From positions 1 through 37,041 of the forward strand of contig QCSC01000008.1 in NCBI GenBank assembly GCA_003211655.1: a DNA stretch of 37,041 nt. Reading direction: 5' to 3'. Origin of the DNA: Prochlorococcus sp. AG-469-F22. Its GTDB lineage: Bacteria; Cyanobacteriota; Cyanobacteriia; PCC-6307; Cyanobiaceae. How positions within the stretch are numbered: the first letter of the stretch is position 1; each line of letters opens with the position of its first letter. This document shows positions 9,360 to 29,193 of the stretch, in pieces. A program made the translations under genes and the position numbers. Under the pieces are notes generated by a model. That model made no database searches, was not told the DNA's origin, and saw only the letters and a list, made by a program, of their open reading frames with translations.

Positions 9360-10391
9360 TTGACAAAAGTGCAAAAACTAAAAAGACTTTTTTATTCAGC
9401 TTTGACTCTTACTTTCTTATTGAATACAAATATACCTGTTAACTCAACTGAAAAAGAAGTGAAGGTTTATTCAGGAAGGCACTATAATACTGATAGAGGA
9501 GTTTATAAGAAATTTGCAGAAGAAACTGGGATAAAAGTAAGACTTATTGAAGCTGCAGGGATATCTTTAATTGAAAGATTAAAAAGAGAAGGAAAAAATT
9601 CTCAAGCAGATTTAATTTTGCTTGTTGATGCAGCAAGAATAACTAATGCTGCAAAAGCAGGTTTGCTGCAAAGAATTGACTCATTAAATTTAGAGAACGA
9701 TGTTCCTGATGGTTTGAAAGATCCAAGAAAGGAATGGTATGCACTAACTAGAAGGGTCAGGGTCATGGTTGCCAATCCAAAAGTTGTTGATGTTAATAAA
9801 ATAAGGGATTATACGGATCTAGCTGATCCCTCTTTAAAAGGGAAAGTGTGTTTAAGAAATAGAAAAAGTCCTTACAACCAATCTCTTGTAGCTAATCAAA
9901 TAGTTAATAAAGGTGAGTCTGAAACTAAAGCTTGGTTAAGTGGAATGATTTCAAATGTTTCTAAACCTTTCTTCCCCGGAGATATTGCAATAGTAAGAGC
10001 AGTTTCCAAGAAAAAATGTGGTGTCGGGATTGTCAATCACTACTATGTTGCAAGAATGCTTGCTGGCGTTAATGGAAGAAGAGATGCTTTGTATGCAAAA
10101 AAAACGTCTGTTATTACACCAAATCCTGCACACGTAAACATTAGTGCTGGAGGTATTGCTAGATATGCAACTAACAAATCTGAAGCTGTAAAATTGCTTG
10201 AATTTTTAGCCTCTCCGAAAGGAAGTAAGGGCTTAGCAGCTCCTACTTTTGAACATCCTTTAAAAGAAGTCAATCAAAATGAAATAGTCAAAAACTTTGG
10301 GGAGTTTACTGCTGATACAGTCACTGTAGATGAGTTAGGTGAAAATAATTCTCTAGCAATCAAAATGATGAAAGAAGCAGGTTGGAATTAA
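9360..10391 (+). CDS. idiA: Ferric iron ABC transporter substrate-binding protein
   Basis: A 343-aa periplasmic Fe(III)-binding protein of the IdiA/FutA/AfuA family, which delivers iron to the FutBC permease. Residues 1-29 are a signal peptide. The family signature VYSGRHYNTD (36-45) contains ligands His41 and Tyr42, and the paired tyrosines Tyr228-Tyr229 in NHYYVARM are the other phenolate ligands. Length is normal. Start is TTG at 9360 (GTG at 9369 is an alternative). The permease and ATPase genes are not adjacent. It is divergent from piuC with a shared regulatory region. Confidence 0.95.
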   Translation: MTKVQKLKRLFYSALTLTFLLNTNIPVNSTEKEVKVYSGRHYNTDRGVYKKFAEETGIKVRLIEAAGISLIERLKREGKNSQADLILLVDAARITNAAKAGLLQRIDSLNLENDVPDGLKDPRKEWYALTRRVRVMVANPKVVDVNKIRDYTDLADPSLKGKVCLRNRKSPYNQSLVANQIVNKGESETKAWLSGMISNVSKPFFPGDIAIVRAVSKKKCGVGIVNHYYVARMLAGVNGRRDALYAKKTSVITPNPAHVNISAGGIARYATNKSEAVKLLEFLASPKGSKGLAAPTFEHPLKEVNQNEIVKNFGEFTADTVTVDELGENNSLAIKMMKEAGWN

Positions 10392-10447
10392 TAAGTAAGA
10401 TATAATAAATTAAACGAATTTATAAATTTTATTTATTATTTTATTGC

Positions 10448-10532
10448 GGAGAGGTGGCTGAGTGGTCGAAAGCGAACGACTCGAAATCGTTTAATAGGCA
10501 ACTATTCGTGGGTTCGAATCCCACCCTCTCCG
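10448..10532 (+). tRNA. tRNA-Ser (anticodon CGA)
   Basis: An 85-nt class II tRNA. The acceptor stem GGAGAGG (10448-10454) pairs with CCTCTCC (10525-10531), with discriminator G. The anticodon stem AACGA/TCGTT encloses loop CTCGAAA, giving anticodon CGA for UCG codons. A long variable arm (TAATAGGCAACTATTC) and a standard T loop GGTTCGAATCC are present. CCA is not encoded. It marks the left edge of the accessory-looking region, and tRNA-Ser genes are common integration targets in Prochlorococcus. Confidence 0.97.
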
Positions 10533-10833
10533 TTTATTTTTAGATCCTTATACCTTTTGTTGCGGTAATTAATCCTCCAAAATAGCTGCAAATAAAAGAT
10601 GGTTGATTAATAATAGATTTAAAAGTTTATATTTCTATTTTGAAATTAACGCTATAACTAGGAATAAAATTTGGTGGATAAATGTGGTTTACCCTTAAAA
10701 TTATGTGGTAGAAAATTCCCTATGTGGTCGAAAGAAATACTTTTACGACTTGGCTTCGATTCAGATGACACCCTATTAATCTATTAAAGGAAAGAATGAT
10801 TTGGTGAATTACTTTTTGAGGTGTGGTAGATAT
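10533..10833. other. Non-coding stretch after tRNA-Ser with ATGTGGT repeats and a tRNA-like fragment
   Basis: No convincing gene is visible. ATGTGGT occurs at 10682-10688, 10703-10709 and 10722-10728, spaced 21 and 19 bases (about two helical turns), with a related GTGTGGT at 10821-10827. The third copy continues as GTGGTCGAAAG (10724-10734), identical to 11 bases of the tRNA-Ser D arm, and about 20 bases later GGCTTCGATTC resembles a T loop. This could be a decayed tRNA fragment left by an integration event, or chance. Confidence 0.35.
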
Positions 10834-12276: not shown

Positions 12277-12468
12277 ATGTCACATGTAGAAAATGATCTT
12301 GATATCTATGCAGTAGGCAATGCAAATACTCAAAGACAAGAGAATGAGATTGCAACAATTATGAGAAAACGTAATTCTGCGGGGTGGAAGTTAATCTCAA
12401 CAAACACGGCAATAGTAGATACTAAAAATCAGTTTTCAAATCTTTACCTATTTTGGGAAAAGAAATAG
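12277..12468 (+). CDS. Small protein resembling DUF4177 (63 aa)
   Basis: The 63-aa protein starts MSHVENDLDIYAVGNANTQR. Its core ENEIATIMRKRNSAGWKLIS and the ending NLYLFWEKK resemble the DUF4177-type fold, where a helix with GW is followed by a strand ending in an aromatic-rich F/W-E/K motif. The ATG at 12277 is preferred; a TTG at 12253 would add eight residues. It lies just before the Yfr1-like RNA gene, on the same strand. Function unknown; the family comparison is from memory and moderate. Confidence 0.5.
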   Translation: MSHVENDLDIYAVGNANTQRQENEIATIMRKRNSAGWKLISTNTAIVDTKNQFSNLYLFWEKK

Positions 12469-12514
12469 TGTTAACACTACACTGAATTGAGATCTTTTCT
12501 ATTAGATTAATATC

Positions 12515-12586
12515 ATCTGAAACTCCTCACACACTAATTTCTGATACTAAACGCCCCGATTCTTAAGAATTAGGGTGTTTTTTTTT
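12515..12586 (+). ncRNA. yfr1: Yfr1-like small regulatory RNA
   Basis: ACTCCTCACAC (12522-12532) is the sequence element conserved in cyanobacterial Yfr1. It lies in the loop of a weak stem: ATC (12515-12517) with GAT (12543-12545), and GAAA (12519-12522) with TTTC (12538-12541), with one T-T mismatch. The 3' end is a terminator: AACGCCC (12550-12556) with GGGTGTT (12573-12579), an inner ATTCTTAAGAAT palindrome, and a 9-T run. A -10-like TAATAT (12508-12513) and a -35-like TTGAGA (12487-12492) precede it. The exact 5' end is unknown. Yfr1 acts by pairing to ribosome sites of porin mRNAs. Confidence 0.85.
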
Positions 12587-12693
12587 AATTCAATTAAGTA
12601 TTTAATTTAAGGTCGTAACTGGTAAATGCGACAATTAAGTAATATTACTCACCCCCTTCCACGAAAAAGAAATATGTGACATATTATAAAAGC

Positions 12694-12788
12694 GTGTGTA
12701 GGAGAGGTTTTACTAAAAAAGTGGAAACAAGGAAACACTTGATTTGGTAAAACCAGAAAAGACCTTTAGAAATAGAGGTCTTTTTTTT
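12694..12788 (+). ncRNA. yfr2: Yfr2 / Cyano-1 family small RNA
   Basis: The outer stem GGTTTTAC (12706-12713) pairs with GTAAAACC (12747-12754). The inner stem AGTG (12720-12723) pairs with CACT (12736-12739) around the loop GAAACAAGGAAA. The GGAGAGG lead and the GGAAACAAGGAAAC loop are what I remember of the Yfr2 family. The terminator AAGACCT/AGGTCTT (about 12759-12781) is followed by 8 T. A -10 box TATTAT (12682-12687) predicts a 5' end near 12694. It lies about 110 bases after the Yfr1-like gene and 190 bases before the ferredoxin gene. The family is abundant in marine picocyanobacteria; its targets are largely unknown. Confidence 0.82.
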
Positions 12789-12978: not shown

Positions 12979-13230
12979 TTAATTTTCCCAGAAAGGGTCA
13001 GTTGTAAAAGAAACGCTTAATGAACAATCTTTTTTACTTTGAATATTGCTTATACAAGCTCTCACAGTTTCTCCATTAACATCTATTTCACAGGCTCCAC
13101 AACTCCCCGTTAAACATCCGGTTGGAATTTCTAAACCTACCTTTTCAGCAATTGAAAACCAATCGTCTCCTTCTGAGGCATATGTCTCGATGTTATTTGG
13201 CCATATAATTTTAATTTTTGATTGTTTCAA
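12979..13230 (-). CDS. 2Fe-2S ferredoxin-like protein (83 aa)
   Basis: A small soluble iron-sulphur protein. Cys39, Cys44 and Cys47 (GCLTGSCGAC) plus Cys59 (VRAC) give C-x4-C-x2-C-x11-C. The last spacing is shorter than in photosynthetic PetF ferredoxins and matches the plant-type cluster of molybdenum hydroxylase small subunits, so this is not the main photosynthetic ferredoxin. Start is TTG, overlapping the cobQ stop (TTGA), indicating translational coupling with cobQ. Role unknown; an electron carrier for a cobalamin-related step is only a guess from position. Confidence 0.82.
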   Translation of the reverse strand: MKQSKIKIIWPNNIETYASEGDDWFSIAEKVGLEIPTGCLTGSCGACEIDVNGETVRACISNIQSKKDCSLSVSFTTDPFWEN

Positions 13231-14756
13231 TTTAACAATAATGAAATATTAAAATTTTTTTTAAATTCATTTGAGAGATTATCAATAATGTTTTCCCGTT
13301 TCATTTTATAAGATCTGGTTCTCTTTTCTAATAAAGGTAAGTTTTTCCCTTTTCTAATTAAATTTAAATAGTGATCTCGCCAGTCATCATTTTCAAAGAT
13401 TCCATGAATATATGTACCTGCAATAGTCCCTCCTTTCTTATTTTCTTTATACCACCCAAGATCTAAATCCTTAAAAATGGGTTTTATTTTAAAAGTATCT
13501 TGACTGTTATCTAATTCAGTTACTCCGTTATGTATCTCAAACCCGTTGATTTCTGTTACCTGCGGCCAAATTGACTCAGAATTTACTTGCCTTGTTATCT
13601 TTTTTTGAAGGAAAGTTGTTTTTAAAGGGAGTAATCCAATTCCATTGATTGATCTCTCACAATTGATTTTTGATCCTTCTTTAAAAAATGGGTCTTCAAG
13701 AATTGTCCCTAACATTTGTAAACCTCCGCAAATTCCAAAAATATTACCTTTATTCGTTGAATAATTTTTTATATCTTCTGATAGACCAGAATCTCTAAGA
13801 AATTGTTGATCTTTAATAGTCTGTTTACTTCCAGGAATAATAAGAAAATCATATTGATTTAAATTTTGAGATTCCATTACCCATTTGATTAATATTGATT
13901 CTTCATTTTCTAATGGATCAAAATCTGAAAAGTTACTAATAGATGGCAATTTAATAATTCCAACCTTTATTTCAGGGTTGGTAACAGATGATTTTTTTTC
14001 TAATAAATCTAAAGAATCCTCTGGAGGGAATTTATCATCTAACCAAGGAATTATTCCTAAAACAGGGATTTTTGTTTTGTTTTCTATCCATTTTTTACCT
14101 TCTTCAAATAATGAAAGGTCTCCTCTAAATCTGTTTATTAATATACCTTTAATGAGTTTTCTTTCGTCCGGTTTCATTAACTCAAGAGTTCCTATTATTT
14201 GAGCAAATACACCTCCTCTTTCGATATCAGTTACTAAAATGCAATTCGCATTTAAATACTTTGCAACTCTTAAGTTCGTAAGGTCTCTGTGAATTAAATT
14301 CATTTCTACAGGACTTCCTGCCCCCTCAATAATTAAACGACAATTTGGGTGTTTTTCATATATTGAATTCAAACCTTTTTTTATTATTTCCCATCCAGAG
14401 GAAAACCAATCTTTGTAGTAATCTTTTGCTGTTGTAATACCCATACTTCTTCCTAAATGAATGACTTCACTAGTTGAATTGCCTTGTGGTTTTAATAGGA
14501 TAGGATTCATCTCCGAAGAAGGAATCATCCCGCAAGCAAATGCTTGTAAAGCTTGAGAAAATGCCATCTCTCCACCATTCCAATCAACCCATGCATTGTT
14601 ACTCATATTTTGACCTTTAAAAGGTATTGGTTCTTCTCCTGAATTTTTAAGAATCCTGCCTATGGCCGTAACTGTTAAAGATTTACCTGCCCCGCTAGAT
14701 GTACCTAAAACCATTAAGGGCTTTTTAATAGGTTGTAGTTTTTCTATTAATTCCAT
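13227..14756 (-). CDS. cobQ: Cobyric acid synthase
   Basis: A 509-aa glutamine-dependent amidotransferase that amidates adenosylcobyrinic acid a,c-diamide at four positions in cobalamin (pseudo-B12) synthesis. The N-terminal ATP site GTSSGAGKS (18-26) is followed by the synthetase domain. The C-terminal glutaminase domain has the nucleophile in GICGGLQML (about 342-350) and the catalytic His in YIHGIFEND. Length matches the family. It shares a 66-bp divergent spacer with maf and overlaps the downstream ferredoxin gene by 4 bases. Confidence 0.96.
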   Translation of the reverse strand: MELIEKLQPIKKPLMVLGTSSGAGKSLTVTAIGRILKNSGEEPIPFKGQNMSNNAWVDWNGGEMAFSQALQAFACGMIPSSEMNPILLKPQGNSTSEVIHLGRSMGITTAKDYYKDWFSSGWEIIKKGLNSIYEKHPNCRLIIEGAGSPVEMNLIHRDLTNLRVAKYLNANCILVTDIERGGVFAQIIGTLELMKPDERKLIKGILINRFRGDLSLFEEGKKWIENKTKIPVLGIIPWLDDKFPPEDSLDLLEKKSSVTNPEIKVGIIKLPSISNFSDFDPLENEESILIKWVMESQNLNQYDFLIIPGSKQTIKDQQFLRDSGLSEDIKNYSTNKGNIFGICGGLQMLGTILEDPFFKEGSKINCERSINGIGLLPLKTTFLQKKITRQVNSESIWPQVTEINGFEIHNGVTELDNSQDTFKIKPIFKDLDLGWYKENKKGGTIAGTYIHGIFENDDWRDHYLNLIRKGKNLPLLEKRTRSYKMKRENIIDNLSNEFKKNFNISLLLN

Positions 14757-15491: not shown

Positions 15492-16874
15492 TTAATCAAT
15501 ATCTGGCATTTCTAGAGCTGGCTCACTCTTTCTGTCGATTCCTTTTTCGAAACCGGCAGCGGCTGCTCTAGCACGACCTGCATGCCAAAGGTGACCGATG
15601 AATGTAAACCATCCTAGGAAGAATTGAGCTGCAGCTAACCATTGTCTTAAGTTAACAAAGTTAACAGCATTAGGCTCAGTAATGATACCACCAACGGAGT
15701 TGATAGAAGCATTAGGTGCATGAGTCATATATTCAGCTGCTCTTCTAACTTGCCAAGGCTGAATATCATTTTGGATTTTCTCAAGGCTCAATCCATTAGG
15801 TCCTCTTAAAGGTTCTAACCATGGTCCTCTGAAATCCCAAAATCTCATTGTTTCACCACCAAATATAATTTCACCTGTAGGAGATCTCATGAGATACTTA
15901 CCTAATCCTGTTGGTCCCATTGTTGAACCTACATTAGCTCCAATTCTTTGATCTCTCACAAGGAAAGTAAAGCTTTGGGCCTGTGAAGCTTCAGCGTTTG
16001 TTGGGCCATAGAATTCTGAAGGGTAAGCAGTGTTGTTGAACCAGATGAAAGTTGATGCAATAAAACTTGCAACGCAGATTCCACCAAGTGCATAACTTAG
16101 AAGACCTTCTCCATTCCAAATGAATGCTCTTCTAGCCCATCCAAAAGGTTTTGTAAAGATATGGAATAAACCACCAATAATTGCGGTTATACCAACGTAA
16201 ACATGGCCTCCAACAATGTCTTCAATTGAGTTAACACCGATAATTGAACCAGCACCTCCCCACGGAGACCTAAATAGATAACCAAGGATTACTCTTGGAT
16301 CTAAAGTTGGACTAACCAATCTAACTTCTCCTCCACCGGGAGCCCATGTGTCATAAGCACCACCGATAAACATCCAATCGGCTGCGAAAAATAAAGCACC
16401 AACTCCTAAAACTACTAGGTGATAACCCAATATGTTAGTCATTTGGTTTTTATCTCTCCAGTCAGTTGAAAAGAAAGGAAAATCTTGCTCGAGCTTTTCT
16501 GGACCAGCTAAAGAGTGATAAATTCCTCCAAAACCTAAAACTGCTGAGGAAATTAAATGTATAACACCTGCAACGAAGAAGGGATATACAGAAGTAACTT
16601 CACCACCAGGGCCAATTCCAAACCCAAACATTGCAACGTGAGGCATACAAATTAAGCCTTGTTCCCACATTGGTTTATCAAATGTGAAATGGCTTACTTC
16701 GAATAACATCATTGCTCCAGCCCAAAATACTATTAGGCCAGAGTGTGCAATGTGTGCTCCAAGTAAACGTCCAGATAAATTAATTAATCTGGCGTTACCT
16801 ACGTACCAAGCGTAACCAGTTTCTTCAATACTCTGGTTAGGAGCTCTTAGTAAATTATTAAAGGGCGTTTCCAC
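15492..16874 (-). CDS. psbC: Photosystem II CP43 protein
   Basis: A 460-aa inner antenna of photosystem II, six membrane helices with a large lumenal loop. [17 protein letters not shown] contains the Glu and Arg that contact the oxygen-evolving cluster in known structures. [20 protein letters not shown] is the typical first-helix region. I take the GTG at 16874 (METPFNN...), which has the Shine-Dalgarno GAGGAGG at 16890-16884; an upstream ATG frame at 16901 lacks family support. It overlaps the psbD 3' end by 17 bases, the classic psbD-psbC arrangement. Confidence 0.97.
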
Positions 16875-17934
16875 GCGGAAGAACCTCCTCAGGGAATACA
16901 AAGTTTTCGTGTGGTTGATCCACAGAAGACATCCATGCTCGCATACCTTCGTTCAGAAGTATATTCTTTGTGTAGAATGTTTCAAATTCTGGATCTTCTG
17001 CAGCTCTTATCTCTTGGCTAACGAAATCGTAAGCTCTTAAGTTAAGTGCTAAACCAACAATACCAATTGAAGATGTCCACATACCCATAACAGGTACAAA
17101 TAGCATCAAGAAGTGAAGGAATCTCTTATTAGAGAAAGCAATACCAAAAATCTGGCTCCAAAATCTATTCGCTGTAATCATTGAATAGGTTTCTTCTTCT
17201 TGTGTTGGATCGAAAGCTCTGAAAGTTGAGCTTTGAACTTTGCCGTCTGTGTAAACACTTGTATCTTCATATAATGTGTTTTGAACTGTAGCTCCGTGGA
17301 TAGCGCAAAGAAGTGCACCACCAAGAATTCCAGCAACACCCATCATGTGAAAAGGGTTAAGGGTAATATTGTGAAAACCTTGAATGAACAAGATATAACG
17401 GAAGATTGCAGCAACACCAAATGAAGGTGCAAAGAACCAACTATGTTGTCCTAGTGGGTATATAAGGAAAATACTTGTAAAAACTGCAATTACAGCTGAA
17501 AAAGCAAGTGCGTTGTAAGGTCTGATACCTACAAGACCAGCAATTTCAAATTGACGAAGCATGAAACCTATAAGGCCAAATACTCCATGTAATGCAACAA
17601 AGTTCCAAAGTCCACCAAGTTGTAGCCATCTTACGAAACTACCTTGGGCTTCTGGACCCCATAAAAATAGAAGACTGTGACCCATGGCATCTCCAGGGGT
17701 ACTTACAGCTGCTGTCAAAAAGTTTGCTCCTTCAAGATATGAAGATGCAATACCATGTGTGTACCAAGAGGTAACAAATGTTGTTCCGACAAACCATCCA
17801 CCAATTGCAAGATATGCACAAGGTAGAAGTAGTAAACCGGACCAACCAATAAATACAAACCTGTCGCGCTTTAACCAATCATCGAGGACATCAAACCATC
17901 CTCTTTGTGGTGCGCTTCCAACGGCGATCGTCAT
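16858..17934 (-). CDS. psbD: Photosystem II D2 protein
   Basis: A 358-aa reaction centre protein with five membrane helices. Recognisable parts are [20 protein letters not shown], the [20 protein letters not shown] region around the redox-active Tyr of helix [22 protein letters not shown] with the pheophytin/P680 and non-haem iron His ligands, and [20 protein letters not shown] at the end. It is slightly longer than the usual 352-353 aa. Start ATG at 17934. It is transcribed with psbC and divergent from ycf4 across about 180 bases. Confidence 0.98.
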
Positions 17935-28115: not shown

Positions 28116-29193
28116 TAATATCTCATTTAAGTTCTCAGACTATATAAACAAAAGACCTTTTAAGCAGGCTTTTCCTTGGATTGGAGGGGACCTTCAAACT
28201 TTAAGAGATACATTTATTTTTGATTTCCTCCAAGCTAAAACAAATAAAAAAATACTTTTACCAATAAATAATATCCTCTCAGAAAAATTTGAGGGCGATT
28301 ATCTCTTAGGGTTATTAGAGTTGCCAGAAAACTTTGATTGTTTAAAAGGTATTGTGCTTACTACTCATGGATTAGGAGGATCTACTAGGCGTTTTGGTTT
28401 AAAACGAATTGCTAGAAAATTAGTAAATAATGGATTTGGAGTTCTTAAATTAAATCTTAGAGGAGCTGGTTCAGCAAGATATTTGGCAAAAGGGAATTAT
28501 TCCGCAAGATGTTCGAATGATATTATTTTGGCGCTTAAAAATTTTAGACAAATTCTTAATTCTGAATTTAAAGATTCTTTAAAAAATAAAGAGGATATTC
28601 CTATATTTGGAGTTGGATTATCTCTTGGAGGAACTATTCTTCTTAATGCCTGCTTAGACTTTAGCTCAAAAAATAGTAGAAAATTATTAGATGGATTGGC
28701 TTGCGTTAGTAGCCCTTTAGATTTACTATCTTGCAGCAATTGTATAGAAAGACCTCGAAATTTTTTATATCAAAAGTGGTTAATGCAACGTTTGAAAAAG
28801 CAATTATGGGATGGATGTAAAAATGAAGGGATTTTATTTCCTAAAAGTAGCTTGAGTAAAAGAATTAAAGGTTTAAAAACGATAGGAGAATTTGATGCAA
28901 ATTTCACTGCACCTAGTTGGGGTTTCAAATCTTTAGAGGATTATTATTATCAATCTTCACCTATATTTAGGATTCAAAATTTAATTAAGAATCTTCCCCC
29001 TACTCTTTTAATTCATGCTAAGGATGATCCTTGGGTTCCATATCAATCTACTTTAAATTTGAAAAATTCTTTGAATGAATCATTAGATAAATTAACTATC
29101 CTAATTACTAACAAAGGGGGGCATAATGGTTTTCATTCTCATTATGGTTGTTGGTCTGATGAAGCAGTAAAGAATTGGCTTCTAAGCATTTAA
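28102..29193 (+). CDS. YheT-like alpha/beta hydrolase
   Basis: A 363-aa alpha/beta hydrolase of the YheT/EMB8 family. THGLGGSTRRFG (about 89-100) is the oxyanion loop. GVGLSLGGTIL (about 171-181) contains the nucleophile Ser. HAKDDPWVPYQST carries the acidic residue and GGHNGFH the catalytic His. Start is TTG at 28102 overlapping pntB by 14 bases; no good internal start exists before the family N terminus. Substrate unknown. It probably belongs to the pnt transcript, and is convergent with the ferredoxin-dxr pair. Confidence 0.85.
   Translation: MGINSNISFKFSDYINKRPFKQAFPWIGGDLQTLRDTFIFDFLQAKTNKKILLPINNILSEKFEGDYLLGLLELPENFDCLKGIVLTTHGLGGSTRRFGLKRIARKLVNNGFGVLKLNLRGAGSARYLAKGNYSARCSNDIILALKNFRQILNSEFKDSLKNKEDIPIFGVGLSLGGTILLNACLDFSSKNSRKLLDGLACVSSPLDLLSCSNCIERPRNFLYQKWLMQRLKKQLWDGCKNEGILFPKSSLSKRIKGLKTIGEFDANFTAPSWGFKSLEDYYYQSSPIFRIQNLIKNLPPTLLIHAKDDPWVPYQSTLNLKNSLNESLDKLTILITNKGGHNGFHSHYGCWSDEAVKNWLLSI

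Follow-up and report, generated by a model that had tools for sequence, protein, structure and literature searches.

The 37,041-nucleotide stretch of Prochlorococcus sp. AG-469-F22 DNA analysed here (the window) raises the question of whether the small RNA gene that begins at position 12515 is a Yfr1 gene that has moved or been duplicated, as a first-pass annotation proposed, or a member of another family. The sequence elements behind that proposal are real: the 11-mer ACTCCTCACAC, the flanking arms GAAA/TTTC, which are longer than had been claimed, and a terminator with 9 T are all present in 12515-12586. The family is another one. The Rfam covariance model of Yfr10 (RF02362) matches 12515..12592 on the forward strand with 65.3 bits, for a cut-off of 43, and does so over the full model (1-78), with E-values (4.7e-8 for the window, 3.3e-10 for the assembly) that place the match beyond chance. 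The 5' end is taken from the MED4 Yfr10 start, 346661, which is also where the model starts in G033, the genome that we treat as MED4 throughout. The RNA of the window is Yfr10, an ordinary member of a known family in a known arrangement.

Identity of the gene

Folding predicts two hairpins for the window Yfr10, with the motif inside the loop of the first. In the minimum free energy fold, ACUCCUCACAC is exposed in the loop of this 5' hairpin, and the Yfr1/Yfr10 pairing motif (the 11-mer, at 12522..12532 on the forward strand) has a mean predicted unpaired probability of 0.89. The stem arms of this hairpin, ATC(T)GAAA and TTTC(T)GAT, carry a single T/T mismatch (U/U in the RNA) that is absent from the Yfr10 consensus. 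Across 67 distinct hairpins, stem pairing (0.793) exceeds that of partners slid by 1-3 bases (0.47-0.53) but not that of shuffled partners (0.792), in a count whose ungapped anchor misplaces one subclass, so that covariation lends the stem no support. A terminator-like hairpin and T run occupy 12549..12586 (forward strand, the 9 T at 12578-12586). Six nucleotides ahead of the putative 5' end, TAGATT (12503..12508, forward strand) has the position and form of a candidate -10 element in an alignment of related loci. A 30-mer of the gene recurs in five assemblies (six named records), every one of them Prochlorococcus sp., a count that perhaps leaves out the genome itself.

The idea of a moved or duplicated Yfr1 draws on the identity of the 11-mer, which occurs four times in the 1.1 Mb assembly (a reversed control pattern never does): in three of the four Yfr10 copies, on contigs C39, C6 and C8 (the window), and in Yfr1 on C1. 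Against it, the Yfr1 covariance model (RF01116), with which the annotation had proposed to check its own claim, gives no match at the locus up to E 0.5, whereas the Yfr10 model matches full length. The motif is predicted to lie in a hairpin loop and not, as in Yfr1, single-stranded between two hairpins, and the gene adjoins ferredoxin and cobQ genes, not guaB-trxA. The sole Yfr1 match of the assembly (58.1 bits) is at G000:C1:28092-28145, between trxA and guaB, both recognised from their translations, and 60 of the 61 genomes that we surveyed (the own genome plus 60 of at least 90% completeness drawn from the genus) contain one Yfr1 match each. With no Yfr1 match at the locus and a Yfr1 at trxA/guaB, the window gene is almost certainly neither a moved nor a second Yfr1. 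This disposes of a false lead and assigns the gene to a regulatory circuit already published for an abundant marine phototroph.

The Yfr10-Yfr2 pair and its partners

A Yfr2-like RNA does lie close by, as had been noticed. The Yfr2 (Cyano-1) gene and its terminator span 12692..12788 on the same strand; RF01701 matches 12692-12759 with 63.5 bits (cut-off 41), the 5' end being 177 nt downstream of that of Yfr10. At its 5' end we find the anti-motif GTGTGTAGGAG (12694..12704, forward strand), which is complementary to the Yfr10 motif apart from one bulged C, as in the published pairing (PMC2518516). Judged by MED4 yfr2, which has its published start at 346828 and its model start at 346826, the mature 5' end is probably 12694.

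The reverse strand then carries a 2Fe-2S ferredoxin-like gene (12979..13230, PF00111), which serves as our marker of the place, and an adjoining cobyric acid synthase (cobQ)-like gene (13227..14756; PF07685, PF01656). The tRNA-Ser that the annotation saw nearby is a tRNA-Ser(CGA) at 10447-10533, about 2 kb off; just upstream of it is an extracellular solute-binding protein gene (9360-10391, forward strand; PF13343 and PF01547). At 16277-16460 (forward strand), an IsrR match (RF01419, 153.4 bits) lies antisense to a CP43-like photosystem II gene (15492-16901, reverse strand; PF00421). IsrR is antisense to isiA, a psbC relative, so that this match probably reflects coding homology; an antisense RNA there is possible.

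In MED4, Yfr10, Yfr12 and Yfr18 adjoin Yfr2, Yfr4 and Yfr5 respectively (Steglich and others 2008, PMC2518516). The same source describes a unadecanucleotide shared by the three RNAs, which could pair with GUGUGUAGGAG of Yfr2-5, leaving a bulged C, as well as a Yfr10-Yfr2 precursor of 270 nt. In MED4, Yfr10 gives rise to an RNA of about 78 nt, which becomes more abundant in darkness (PMC2518516; PMC6778093); the Yfr10-Yfr2 pull-down and the loss of ppa mRNA binding once UCCU is changed were obtained in MED4 or with MED4 RNAs (PMC2518516, PMC6778093). In high-light strains Yfr10 is encoded upstream of a Yfr2 homologue (PMC6778093), with which the window arrangement agrees, and its targets in MED4 overlap those of Yfr1 but differ (Lambrecht and others 2019, PMC6778093). 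The annotation's idea of a paralogue with a new target set stands in part: the gene is a paralogue of a kind, Yfr10, that has partly separate MED4 targets, but it is not Yfr1 itself, moved or duplicated.

In the window we observe the family match, the pair, the complementarity and, by folding, the exposed loop. By analogy, the MED4 behaviour (expression, Yfr2 pull-down, ppa binding, precursor) would hold in AG-469-F22 too. Our explanation as a whole, of which we are highly confident, is that the locus is a tandem Yfr10-Yfr2 pair whose Yfr10 would pair with mRNAs and with Yfr2 through its exposed loop. Its own promoter would probably drive a Yfr10 RNA about 78 nt long, the loop of which would pair with mRNAs and also with the Yfr2 5' end (GUGUGUAGGAG); Yfr2, from the neighbour and from other copies, would compete with the mRNAs for Yfr10 and Yfr1. 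Through this competition, light and nitrogen signals on one RNA would alter the activity of the other.

The survey found the two RNAs together nearly everywhere. G033 could be treated as MED4 because its Yfr10 lies exactly at 346661-346738 and its Yfr1 exactly at 1000744-1000797, matching published coordinates; its four Yfr2-type matches start two bases before the published yfr2, yfr3, yfr4 and yfr5 starts of MED4. The 61 genomes yield 96 Yfr10 matches (at E 0.001 or better) and 109 Yfr2 matches. Of the 96, 94 are followed on the same strand by a Yfr2 whose 5' end lies 140-177 nt beyond that of Yfr10; the two others are at a contig end (G261) and before a degraded Yfr2 core (G165:C7, L053). 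Seen from Yfr2, 96 of 109 have a Yfr10 upstream, two of these being weaker than E 0.001: the survey was run at E 0.05, and 17 weaker matches were kept apart, two of them beside Yfr2. The search for Yfr10 covered 266 genomes of the genus, and in the family 28 of 201 genomes contain it; stricter filters in searches of more than 40 genomes lose weak matches, so absences are upper bounds. G024 has five matches of each family, and two complete pairs stand in direct tandem about 850 nt apart (G024:C1:1096537-1097615, L080). In G258 (C12:445-2959, L083) two pairs lie on opposite strands, their Yfr10 genes about 2.4 kb apart.

The own assembly (59% complete) contains four Yfr10 and four Yfr2, arranged as four tandem pairs. 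None was found near Yfr1, the expected place (usual distance about 28 kb) falling at or beyond the end of contig C1 in this incomplete assembly. Between the window loop and each of the four own Yfr2, the predicted duplex energies are -13.6 to -17.9 kcal/mol, and the Yfr2 on C6 is predicted to be bound better (-17.9) than the own neighbour (-16.6). We considered private co-evolution inside pairs and do not accept it as a general rule. In 141 distinct sequence pairs (a few of them untrue, such as L126, the lone MED4 Yfr3), true neighbours are barely better than shuffled ones (-15.84 vs -15.66 kcal/mol; z -2.2, p 0.017, with no correction for relatedness), a weak effect being possible, and among 40 rows whose 13-nt motif is changed the own neighbour is the top-ranked partner in 1. 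Since the best predicted partner of the window gene is not its neighbour and shuffled partners are nearly as good, the network is most likely a shared one, in which each Yfr2 could bind each Yfr10 and Yfr1. The fourth own pair (G000:C7:28296-28374 and 28465-28532; L004, L012) has ACTCTTCACAC in Yfr10 and GTGTGTAAGAG in Yfr2; its CUCUU and AAGAG, respectively, make a compensated C-G to U-A change, of which G003 (L155) provides a second case.

A read-through RNA from 12515 to about 12788 would measure 274 nt, about the size of the 270-nt MED4 precursor, and in its predicted fold the motif pairs with the anti-motif. Among the 94 foldable of 96 paired copies, half or more of the motif is placed on the anti-motif in 86 (55/55 near Yfr1, 15/22 at the window's place and 16/17 elsewhere); with the anti-motif letters shuffled this is still so in 26 of the 94, and part of this fold is thus due to composition. 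The predicted fold makes a silent Yfr10-Yfr2 precursor possible.

Genomic places, loss of the motif and the 63-aa gene

We sorted the 109 Yfr2 copies by their neighbours into three groups. Place A has flanking sequence in common with MED4 Yfr18-Yfr5, and 48 of its copies share a contig with Yfr1 at a distance of 24.7-34.2 kb; place B comprises the copies no more than 5 kb from the ferredoxin-like gene that is also a neighbour of the window gene; the rest are at other places. The location, which had been taken as unusual, recurs: place B accounts for 30 of the copies, 24 of them with a Yfr10 match. All 55 copies at place A have Yfr10 and GTGTG.AGGAG in Yfr2, and 52 have the exact 11-mer. At place B, GTGTG.AGGAG is present in 25 and the exact 11-mer in four (the window, G055, G109 and G137), so that 26 copies are without it (20 changed, 6 without a Yfr10 match); the 24 copies at other places include 17 with Yfr10, 13 exact motifs and 22 with GTGTG.AGGAG. 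Among copies with Yfr10 the exact motif is thus found in 4/24 at B vs 52/55 at A (Fisher p 6e-12, which is overstated because rows share ancestry, many at place B having one inherited C to T change and not being independent events). The sorting begins from Yfr2 matches and therefore cannot show Yfr2 loss. Beside the ferredoxin gene of G165 (G165:C7:21549-21625; L053, L239), an intact Yfr10 stands before a degraded Yfr2 core, contrary to the erosion usual at this place; counted from Yfr10, with this copy included, place B has 5 exact motifs in 25. A testable question is what has led most strains with Yfr2 at this place to lose the intact motif of the neighbouring Yfr10.

Conservation was compared in an alignment of 59 cassettes with the small upstream gene described below, also from beyond the 61 genomes (one of 60 was lost, and row L203 is misaligned). 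In the 34 with a changed motif, mean pairwise identity is 0.75 for the motif, 0.77 for both stems, 0.68 for the terminator and 0.73 for the spacer, and 0.91 for the Yfr2 anti-motif and 0.98 for the Yfr2 core. In our reading, the changed copies have constraint relaxed on Yfr10 and maintained on Yfr2. In the 25 intact-motif cassettes, the window copy among them (motif 1.00 by choice), the stems reach 0.94 and 0.93 vs 0.72 for the spacer.

Given how many place B copies are without the exact motif, the window copy could be on its way out too: a decaying Yfr10 that no longer matters, at a place where selection keeps Yfr2 while Yfr10 is being lost. The scarcity of exact motifs there (4/30, against 52/55 near Yfr1), a motif hardly more conserved than the spacer in changed cassettes whose Yfr2 is preserved, and the mismatch in the window stem all point this way. 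However, the window copy keeps its 13-nt motif, loop and terminator, cassettes of its group hold their stems well over the spacer, and in G165:C7, at the same place, it is the other partner that is degraded, a kind of loss to which the Yfr2-based count is blind. We regard decay of the window copy as unlikely and prefer to see in it a Yfr10 paired with Yfr2.

Directly upstream of Yfr10 is a gene of 63 aa (12277..12468, forward strand; open frame from 12253, conserved start ATG at 12277). The label 'DUF4177-like' that it had received finds no backing, no Pfam or NCBIfam model matching it up to E 10 (with filters that drop most matches above about 0.1). It has homologues in 32 of the 61 genomes (39 match rows, or 36 loci, three genes being split into two rows) and stands directly upstream of Yfr2 on the same strand at 30 of the 36 loci, with Yfr10 between in 28. 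By place, it accompanies 23 of the 30 copies at B, 7 of 24 elsewhere (the own C6 and MED4 Yfr12-Yfr4 included) and none of the 55 at A. A stop codon occurs in 17 of the 39 match rows; read from the conserved ATG, 29 of the 35 loci examined have an open frame of at least 51 residues. The median pairwise dN/dS is 0.17 (701 of 703 pairs; 38 distinct codon strings, 73 overlapping loci) in a set of stop-free copies, from which an uncounted number with stops or short matches was dropped; this purifying selection indicates a protein gene. Of six loci without a Yfr10-Yfr2 pair, the five scanned (L193, L194, L195, L198, L200) gave no convincing remnant, with matches of 4 or 6 mismatches only. In the family, 13 of 201 genomes have the gene. 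Four of the six genomes with it in the sister genus g38 (G302, G361, G403, G418) also have a weak Yfr10 match, below the Rfam cut-off, 5-9 kb away on the same contig and not adjacent, a layout that may be the older arrangement.

Such a neighbour suggests that the RNA might be released from the 3' end of the mRNA of this gene and not transcribed from its own promoter. Both are on the same strand, Yfr10 begins 46 nt past the stop codon, and the spacing to the gene start is mostly 250-270 nt in linked copies. The -10-like TAGATT just before the putative 5' end argues instead for a promoter, the pairs near Yfr1 do without the 63-aa gene (0/55), and the gene upstream of MED4 Yfr10 lies on the opposite strand (PMC2518516). 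Release from the mRNA thus seems quite improbable to us, and a promoter of its own remains our reading.

We also put forward, tentatively and as a possibility that we would not bet on, that the 63-aa gene, Yfr10 and Yfr2 form a three-part cassette, a unit of inheritance copied to several places in Prochlorococcus. At ferredoxin/cobQ, Yfr10 would usually erode while the sponge Yfr2 and, in most copies, the protein gene persist; with Yfr2 fixed, gaining and losing Yfr10 would tune the balance of Yfr1/Yfr10 to Yfr2 between strains; and a read-through transcript, folding motif onto Yfr2, would be silent until cut. A search of open-licence papers by names, not by idea, found none on the three-part unit; PMED4_04471, the MED4 neighbour of Yfr12, occurs there in one paper, once, in a table of PMC2518516. 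Whether the small protein gene preceding the pair belongs to the circuit is a second testable question.

Comparison with known systems

The published MED4 arrangement of Yfr10 with Yfr2 makes the window gene and its neighbour an arrangement already known; new from the survey are the near-constant pairing with Yfr2, the recurrent places, the loss of the exact Yfr10 motif at the window's place in most of the sampled relatives with Yfr2 there, and the linked small gene under purifying selection. Yfr1 (RF01116) shares the 11-mer with the window gene, but differs in structure and place and is separately present in the assembly. MED4 Yfr10 (RF02362) resembles it in the full-length match, the loop motif, the terminator and the Yfr2 just downstream, but lies at another place (346661), and no MED4 Yfr2 match (0/4) adjoins the MED4 ferredoxin gene at 1112317; the single stem mismatch of the window copy is a further difference. 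MED4 Yfr18-Yfr5 is the same type of pair, at a place about 28 kb from Yfr1 where 52 of 55 copies have the exact 11-mer and, unlike in the window, none is preceded by the 63-aa gene. MED4 Yfr12-Yfr4 has the order of the window, with a 63-aa homologue, then a Yfr10-type and then a Yfr2-type RNA on the same strand, but Yfr12 carries CAUAUAC instead of CACACAC (ACTCCTCATAT; PMC2518516), whereas the window keeps the exact motif.
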